Assembly (NCBI GenBank): GCA_027038555.1
Contig: JALVVX010000027.1
Coordinates: 1-40,589, forward strand
DNA from: Nautiliaceae bacterium
GTDB taxonomy: Bacteria > Campylobacterota > Campylobacteria > Campylobacterales > Nautiliaceae
Direction: 5' to 3'
DNA: 40,589 nt
Shown in pieces: positions 37,685 to 40,383 of this stretch. Each line of letters opens with the position of its first letter. Position 1 is the first letter of the stretch. Position numbers and translations under genes: made by a program. Below the pieces are notes generated by a model that was not told the DNA's origin, did no database searches, and saw only the letters and a list, made by a program, of their open reading frames with translations.

Positions 37685-39901
37685 ATGGATTATATGGAAA
37701 TTGATAAATCTCAGCTTGATGAAATACTGGCGAAACATAAATTAACAAAAGAAGATTATGAACACATAGTAAAAATTTTAGGCAGAGCTCCGAATTTGGT
37801 AGAACTTGGAATTTTTAGTGCTATGTGGAGTGAACATTGTAGCTATAAATCAAGTAAATGTTATTTAAAAGGATTTCCGACAGAAGCACCTTGGGTTATT
37901 CAAGGTCCGGGGGAAAATGCCGGTGTTATTGATATAGGCGAAGGGATGGCGGCTGTATTTAAAATGGAATCTCATAACCACCCGAGTTTTATAGAACCGT
38001 ATCAGGGTGCGGCTACGGGAGTTGGTGGAATACTTAGAGATGTATTTACAATGGGTGCAAGACCTGTGGCAAACCTTAATGCTATAAGATTCGCACATGT
38101 AAAAGGTAATGATGAAGTAGCTAAACTTCATAAGCATCTTTTAAGCGGTGTTGTGGCAGGTATTGCAGGATATGGCAACTGTATAGGAGTTCCTACAATC
38201 GGGGGTGAAAGTGCATTTGAAGACAGTTATAAAGGAAATATTTTAGTTAATGCTTTTTCTCTTGGAGTATGTCCTCAGGATGAGATTTTTTACGCAAAAG
38301 CCGAGGGTGTCGGAAATCCTGTAATATATGTAGGTAGCAAAACGGGAAGAGACGGTCTTGGTGGTGCTGTAATGAGCTCTGACAGTTTTAAAGAAGGGGA
38401 TGAAGACCAAAGACCTACCGTTCAGGTCGGAGATCCGTTTACTGAAAAACTTCTTATGGAAGCATGTTTGGAACTTTTCAAAACCGATTATATTGTCGGT
38501 ATTCAAGATATGGGGGCGGCAGGGCTTACTTCTTCAAGTTTTGAGATGGCAAGCAAAAGCGGAAGCGGGCTTAAAATGTATCTTGATAAAGTACCTATGA
38601 GAGAAGAGGGGATGAATCCTTATGAGCTGATGCTTAGCGAATCACAAGAAAGAATGCTTATCTGTGCCAAAAAAGGATATGAGGATAAAGTAATTGAAAT
38701 ATTTAAAAAATGGGACCTTGACGCTGAGGTAATAGGAGAAGTTACCGATACAGGAAAAGTTGAATTATACTGGTATGGTGAAAAAGTGGCCGAAGTTCCT
38801 GTGGGACCTATTACAGATGAGGCTCCTGAGCTTTGCAGACCTGTTAAAGAGCCTGAATATTTAAAAACAATAAAAAATGTTGAAATTCCGGATGTAAATT
38901 TGCAAGAGGCATTTGAAAAACTGATGGCTGAGAGTGAAGTAGTGGATAAAGCATGGATATACGAACAATATGATTCAATGGTTCAAACAAATACAGTTGA
39001 TACTAAAAGGGCTGACGGGAGTGTCATAAGAGTAAAAGAAAATAATAAATTTCTTGGAATGAGCTGTGATTGTAATGCAAGATTTAATTACATAAATCCG
39101 CGTCTTGGAGCAGCAGCGGCTGTTATGGAAGCCGGAAGAAACGTAGCTGTTAAAAAAATCATTCCAAAAGCAATAACTGATTGTCTAAATTACGGAAATC
39201 CAGAAAATCCGGAAATTATGTGGCAGTTCAAAGAAGGATGCGAAGGTATAAAAGAAGCATGCAGAGCATTAAATACTCCTGTTGTAAGCGGTAATGTGTC
39301 GCTATATAATGAAAACGAAGGTGAAGGGGTATATCCTACTCCTGAAATTGCAATGGTAGGTGTGGGTGAAGATTTTAGAACGACTGAATTGAAAAATGAC
39401 GGTAACACTGTTTATATTTTGGGTGAGACAAAACCTGAATTTGGAGGAAGTTTGTATCTTAAAATATTTGGAGGTAAAGTTGCAGGCGAGCATCCGGAAG
39501 TTGATTTTGAAAAAGAGCTAAAACTTTGGGAAGTGCTTCAAAGCGATTTAATCAAATCGGCAAAAGATATCAGTACCGGCGGTCTTGCCATAGCCGCATA
39601 TAAATGGGCGTGCGTAAGCAATAAAGGACTTGATATCAATGTAAAAGTTCAAAATCCAAAAGATATTTTTGCTGAGTCTCTAAGTAGGGCGTTTGTGGAA
39701 GTTGCGCCTGAGGATGAAGAAGCCTTTGAAAAACTGTGTAGAGAAAAAGGAATTTATTTCGAAAAAGTAGGAATTGTAGGTGGTGATAAAATTAAAATAA
39801 ACGGTGTTGAAGTGAATCTTGAAAAAGCAAAAGATGTCTATTTCAACACATTTCCGAAAATTATGAAAAACATTCATGACTTTGCAGACGATTTTTTATA
39901 A
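37685..39901 (+). CDS. purL: Phosphoribosylformylglycinamidine synthase, large subunit
   Basis: 738 residues, the length of the bacterial small-type PurL that works with PurS and PurQ in purine synthesis. Motifs: [12 protein letters not shown] near 45-56, [10 protein letters not shown] near 94-103, [11 protein letters not shown] and [14 protein letters not shown] near 272-285, then a second ATP-like half with [11 protein letters not shown] and [13 protein letters not shown] 37685 is favoured over 37694 because of ribosome-site spacing. PurQ and PurS are not in the window. Confidence 0.95.
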
Positions 39902-39923: not shown

Positions 39924-39989
39924 AAATAAAGAGTAAAAATATTATGTTAATTTGTGGAGTTATATTATTTGGATACTGAATTAAATAAC

Positions 39990-40222
39990 GGAAAATAATA
40001 ACAAAACAGCGTTGCGTAATTTAACGAAAATTTTGCATTTAAAAAACTACCCCAAAGAGCAGGCGTCCGAAGAGTGCAAGTTTGCACATTATCGTCGCCG
40101 TGCGAGCCTAAAAATGACAAGCAGTTGTCATTTTTTTAACGGCTCTACTGTTTGTAATTTTTAGCAAAATTTAAGTGTTGCAAAGCAAAATAAAGCACGA
40201 AGCTGTTGTGTTTTTATTTTTA
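39990..40222 (+). ncRNA. Candidate structured non-coding RNA, family unknown
   Basis: No ORF lies in 39902-40383, but this part folds well. Outer stems: AAAATAA 39992-39998 with TTATTTT 40214-40220, and AACAGC 40005-40010 with GCTGTT 40202-40207. Closing stem of a multibranch: 40028-40036 with 40164-40172 (9 bp). Inside are hairpin A (GGCG 40062-40065/CGCC 40096-40099; CGA/TCG; GTGCA 40074-40078/TGCAC 40083-40087, AGTT loop) and hairpin B (GAGCC 40104-40108/GGCTC 40141-40145 enclosing an 11-bp stem 40110-40120/40125-40135, GCAG loop). The core is much richer in G+C than its surroundings, a mark of functional RNA in AT-rich thermophiles. It ends in a T-rich stretch. It shows no signature of tRNA, tmRNA, SRP or RNase P. 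Strand is inferred from the T-rich 3' end. Confidence 0.55.
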
Positions 40223-40383
40223 CTGTTACATATGTTTATAAAATTTTATTTAGTAAGTGCCATTATTTTAACATTAGAAAATTAAATCAAATAAAATTTG
40301 AATAATAAATATTCTGTATCTATTGGTGTCAAAGGATATTTATGAATTTTTAACTTTGGTATAATTTTTAAAAAAGGCTAAGT
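40223..40383 (+). promoter_or_regulatory. AT-rich leader with extended -10 of the aldo/keto reductase gene
   Basis: Nothing is seen in this stretch except TG-G-TATAAT at 40357-40365, 18 nt before the ATG, and an AAAAAAGG ribosome site at 40371-40378. The reductase therefore has its own promoter, separate from the RNA element upstream. Confidence 0.6.

Follow-up and report, generated by a model that had tools for sequence, protein, structure and literature searches.

A probable MITE-like element with a nested palindromic repeat between purL and an aldo/keto reductase gene of a Nautiliaceae bacterium

The gene-free region that follows purL in the window analysed here (the whole stretch of 40,589 nucleotides) is best explained as a non-autonomous element resembling a MITE (miniature inverted-repeat transposable element), in which a REP-like, terminator-like palindrome, called module B below, is nested. 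We give this explanation a probability of roughly 0.85. It is preferred because the element has ends of its own and a duplicated target, with an inverted-repeat pattern commoner than the backward control, and because module B occurs alone in 61 of 298 genomes, has a characteristic position at stop codons and is found both present and absent at one groEL site. The MITE assignment itself follows from terminal inverted repeats with 8-bp duplications in sister copies, from elements of about 150 bp sharing the same ends, and from the existence of dispersed copies, short and long forms, and empty sites.

No gene lies between purL (37685-39901) and the start of the reductase (40384), as the sequence-only reading had stated. 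That reading had placed an unassigned, multi-stem structured RNA at 39990-40222, and the fold it described is borne out: the minimum free energy is -67.6 kcal/mol, against a mean of -47.4 (SD 4.1) for 200 dinucleotide shuffles, none of which was as good (z = -4.95), and the outer AT-rich stem, the closing stems and the two internal hairpins were all recovered. The limits did not hold, since the true unit is wider, spanning 290 bp at 39972-40261, within which no open reading frame of 60 aa or more is listed. The fold is strong because the body of the element is one long imperfect palindrome. The reverse strand folds nearly as well (-68.1 versus -74.2 kcal/mol), which is expected of a DNA palindrome, so that the present evidence fits an RNA hairpin and a DNA hairpin alike. 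The parts of the element are these:

39964-39971, no strand: left target-site duplication ATTATTTG, identical to 40262-40269 at 7 of 8 positions
39972-39986, forward: left terminal inverted repeat GATACTGAATTAAAT, with one inserted base relative to the family consensus GGYACTGACTAAAT
39987-40059, forward: module A, the 5' half of the core palindrome of the MITE, conserved whether a copy is short or long
40060-40150, forward: module B, the nested two-hairpin palindromic repeat CAGGCG...GGCTCTACTG, missing from short copies, occurring alone across Campylobacterota and folding well
40096-40150, forward: second hairpin of module B, with a GCAG loop and a U/UUAAC internal loop, covarying and matching model R1 at 80.5 bits
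40151-40228, forward: module C, the 3' half of the same core palindrome
40248-40261, reverse: right terminal inverted repeat GGCACTTACTAAAT (read inward), with one mismatch to GGYACTGACTAAAT
40262-40269, no strand: right target-site duplication ATTATTTT, identical to ATTATTTG at 7 of 8 positions

The terminal inverted repeats are clearer in sister copies than in the one between purL and the reductase gene. In this copy the inner stem formed by AAAAATTGCA and TGCAATTTTT in relatives is broken by a 6-nt deletion (TTGCAT) within module A, and its CCCC/GGGG tip is mutated; with part of its inner stem lost and the tip altered, the copy looks decayed. We suppose that the element inserted between the two genes and duplicated about 8 bp of its target, probably moved by a transposase acting in trans, and that the decayed copy would now serve no dedicated function. 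Just upstream of the element position, 3' of purL at 39930-39950, there is a short motif like AGTAAAATTATTATGTTAA, and a similar motif follows purL in several relatives (G004, G005 and G006).

A DNA search of 60 relatives located related copies in the genomes of other Nautiliaceae, at loci that have nothing to do with this one. The nearest shares 87% identity and lies at a different place, on contig C3 of G006. Only one strong copy was found in the bacterium's own assembly, a draft in which repeats can be lost. Altogether 37 full copies were gathered, 26 of them short (about 165 nt) and 11, including the one described here, long (about 245 nt). The short copies match only the two outer parts of our element, while the long ones carry the nested module B of about 91 nt. 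In G005, a member of the same genus, and in G013, the same reductase gene comes next after purL, and the spacer between the two is devoid of the element. Many of the copies end in GGYACTGACTAAAT inverted repeats flanked by 8-bp direct duplications, which are exact in sister copies such as L033 (AATTAAAA) and L039 (ATTTTTTC), and occurrences of the GGYACTGACTAAAT pattern far outnumber those of its backward control. A second family, of MITEs of about 150 bp with GGYACTGACTAAAT ends, is common in Nautiliaceae (L199-L205, L210, L211) and also shows exact 8-bp duplications (L199 taaacata, L202 caaactta, L203 aagaaaag, L205 ttttcttt); no transposase partner was found for it. The same core is also found between other ends, CAGGGCTGTTTCA, accompanied by 10-bp duplications (L046 ATCTTTTCCA, L047 GTGAATGTAA, L048 AAAAACTACC). 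One MITE core thus appears to travel in two kinds of ends, GGYACTGACTAAAT and CAGGGCTGTTTCA. The copies with CAGGGCTGTTTCA ends (L046, L047, L048, L063, L064, L065) come from G016 and G020.

These observations bear on the proposal that the region is an independent small-RNA gene, for example a divergent 6S RNA, with its own promoter. The strong fold and the gene-free spacer would suit such a gene, and 6S RNA is likewise a long imperfect, intergenic hairpin. The element, in contrast, is multicopy and mobile, with a branched interior, transposon ends and target duplications, and the orthologous spacer exists without it. The two -10 boxes put forward for the gene are otherwise accounted for by the position of the element's ends, since TATATT falls in the left flank and duplication and GATACT in the left inverted repeat. 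Searches of Rfam 15, which the sequence-only reading had proposed, gave no match for 39990-40222 at gathering scores and, at relaxed thresholds (E up to 10) over the element, two chance-level matches with nothing relevant among them; the region thus stays unassigned in Rfam, and the 6S models, without a match, lend 6S RNA no support. What was found is in essence a match to an insertion-sequence end, which that reading had itself named as evidence against a gene. The small-RNA gene is largely refuted here, and we regard it as very improbable.

Some observations do count against the MITE reading. No match to the IS1595, IS6, ISL3 or DDE_Tnp_1 transposases was found in 21 Nautiliaceae genomes, many of them incomplete; these four DDE families were therefore rejected as movers, and no autonomous parent is available among them. 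The target duplication matches at seven of eight positions and the left repeat has an inserted base. The core copies with CAGGGCTGTTTCA ends go beyond a simple MITE history. Finally, a functional RNA would likewise account for the covariation in the core and in module B.

This covariation is considerable. In an alignment of 20 short cores, the core forms one long branched hairpin in which 97.5% of cells are paired and 10 pairs are altered on both sides. For the hairpin of module B, 93.7% of cells pair across 110 distinct matches, against at most 53% when the partners are slid, and 14 of the 16 pairs are changed on both sides; because this alignment had been fitted to the structure, its counts lean that way. 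The 20 starting sequences of module B, aligned without structure, agree with it: 95% are paired, and 11 of the 16 pairs covary. The stems are conserved in relatives with compensatory changes, which supports the sequence-only reading in this respect. The core or module B could accordingly be a functional structured RNA spread as cargo of mobile elements, and the conserved unpaired loops (GCAG and U/UUAAC) and the placement of module B flush to stop codons point the same way. Paired changes, however, may also arise from upkeep of a DNA palindrome or from homogenisation among copies, both strands fold almost equally well, and the copy downstream of purL has lost part of its inner stem. We consider the functional RNA possible but unlikely. 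Module B may be functional as RNA, may be a target for DNA recombination, or may be both.

Module B is an element in its own right, the one that separates the long from the short MITE copies, and in the preferred explanation it would be a separate palindromic repeat sitting at the tip of the MITE palindrome. Both of its hairpins fold. A covariance model of the second hairpin (R1) detected the module in 61 of 298 genomes of Campylobacterota, from 30 of 59 genera, with up to 19 copies per genome. The maximum belongs to G262, of the Helicobacter family, where at least 19 copies are set in a mosaic of other repeats (L120-L123, L152-L162) and several lie about 0.8 kb apart around small genes. An integron attC origin was considered for these spaced pairs and rejected: on inspection by eye, the base of the hairpin showed no GTTRRRY/RYYYAAC box pair, and each locus is a mosaic made up of many repeats. 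Module B is sometimes arranged in tandem, with units of about 80-87 bp; in the arrays noted at L124, L126 and L081 8795-9216 the units measure 80-138 bp. One such array lies between trmE and purL in G047, and copy number differs at orthologous sites between G251 and G292. A pattern scan of one genome per species, covering about 85,000 species, gave almost only Campylobacterota among the matches listed. The handful of other labels among them (Caldisericaceae, Deltaproteobacteria, Patescibacteria) may reflect mis-binned contigs, and one viral contig also matched. No Rfam model matched the family in the loci tested, at gathering or relaxed thresholds, and the open-access papers searched yielded nothing specific on a MITE, palindromic repeat or structured RNA of Campylobacterota. 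The module B family, whose structure is conserved and whose members are dispersed across the phylum, has apparently not been described before.

The position of module B relative to genes is precise. Its reverse strand directly follows a stop codon at 34 of 99 usable sites, counting any stop within a 21-nt zone at the end of B that closes an open frame of 120 codons or more. Random positions drawn from these loci gave 1.8 on average and 5 at most, and the other side of the module gave 5. The flanked genes, named by eye from their C-terminal sequences, include groEL, fabG, guaA and trmE. At the groEL site of one Sulfurovum-like genus (L134 5913-5967; L332-L335), G251 carries module B and the stop is TGA, G292 and G249 are without it and the stop is TAA, and G254 has a degenerate relative. 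The module was also found in an rRNA operon spacer, and at or inside the last CRISPR repeats, at the array end, in G008 and G037 (L071 5200-6500; L074 4400-5100; L073 3600-4130). A reverse-transcriptase gene lies near the CRISPR-end copies in both genomes and probably belongs to the adaptation module; the one first seen beside B in G008 adjoins the CRISPR repeats. In G075, such a gene is about 2 kb from a copy of B.

Read on its reverse strand, module B offers a hairpin flanked by an A-tract and a T-tract, and this form together with the stop-codon position suggests a terminator or REP-like role. It would then work like a REP element or a portable terminator, through termination or a translation-buffering action. 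A bolder proposal, which we hold only tentatively, is that module B is a phylum-wide mobile and functional 3'-end element, a portable terminator or regulator set flush to stop codons and at times seemingly supplying the stop, moved by an enzyme that recognises the hairpin with the GCAG loop and the UUAAC bulge.

As to its mover, Y1 transposase, reverse transcriptase and TnpB were each rejected for want of consistent co-occurrence. One alternative holds that module B belongs to the REP sequences and owes its movement to a RAYT-type Y1 transposase. The module is small, palindromic and intergenic, forms tandem arrays and lies close to stop codons, and a Y1_Tnp gene is present in every Nautiliaceae genome of the test set (including G000:C16:8466-8795). 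Many genomes bearing module B, however, gave no Y1_Tnp match, among them G262 with its 19 copies, G228, G029, G037, G075, G097 and G174, and the reverse situation is found in G011, G012 and G014, where Y1_Tnp is present and the threshold applied returned no copy of module B. The co-occurrence data already weaken this alternative, which we judge improbable; as several B-rich genomes gave no match to Y1_Tnp, we call the module REP-like and do not file it as a REP.

Like bacterial MITEs in general, the element between purL and the reductase gene is short, palindromic, multicopy and free of coding frames, with terminal inverted repeats and target duplications. It differs in that no parent insertion sequence was found among the four families tested, and in that one core occurs in two kinds of ends with a second repeat nested in its tip. 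The BOX elements of Streptococcus pneumoniae are modular repeats in which the outer modules are constant and an inner one may be present or absent. Our element resembles them by description in this arrangement, but here the inner module, B, is also found alone across a phylum. The REPs of E. coli are intergenic palindromes that are sometimes arrayed and often lie no more than 15 nt from a stop codon, at which distance they have been reported to stall ribosomes (PMC12306157). Module B shares with them the intergenic palindrome, the nearness to stop codons and the occasional arrays; it is larger (two hairpins), sits flush to the stop and does not track Y1 transposases.

Once explained as mobile DNA, this striking structured intergenic region need not be recorded as a new RNA gene. 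The same analysis brings to light a repeat family that occurs in about one-fifth of the Campylobacterota genomes searched, covaries strongly and has a precise position at stop codons. The module B family is a more interesting result than the MITE copy that led to it, and it matters for the annotation of genomes, for the ends of CRISPR arrays and for the question of how genes come to have terminators.
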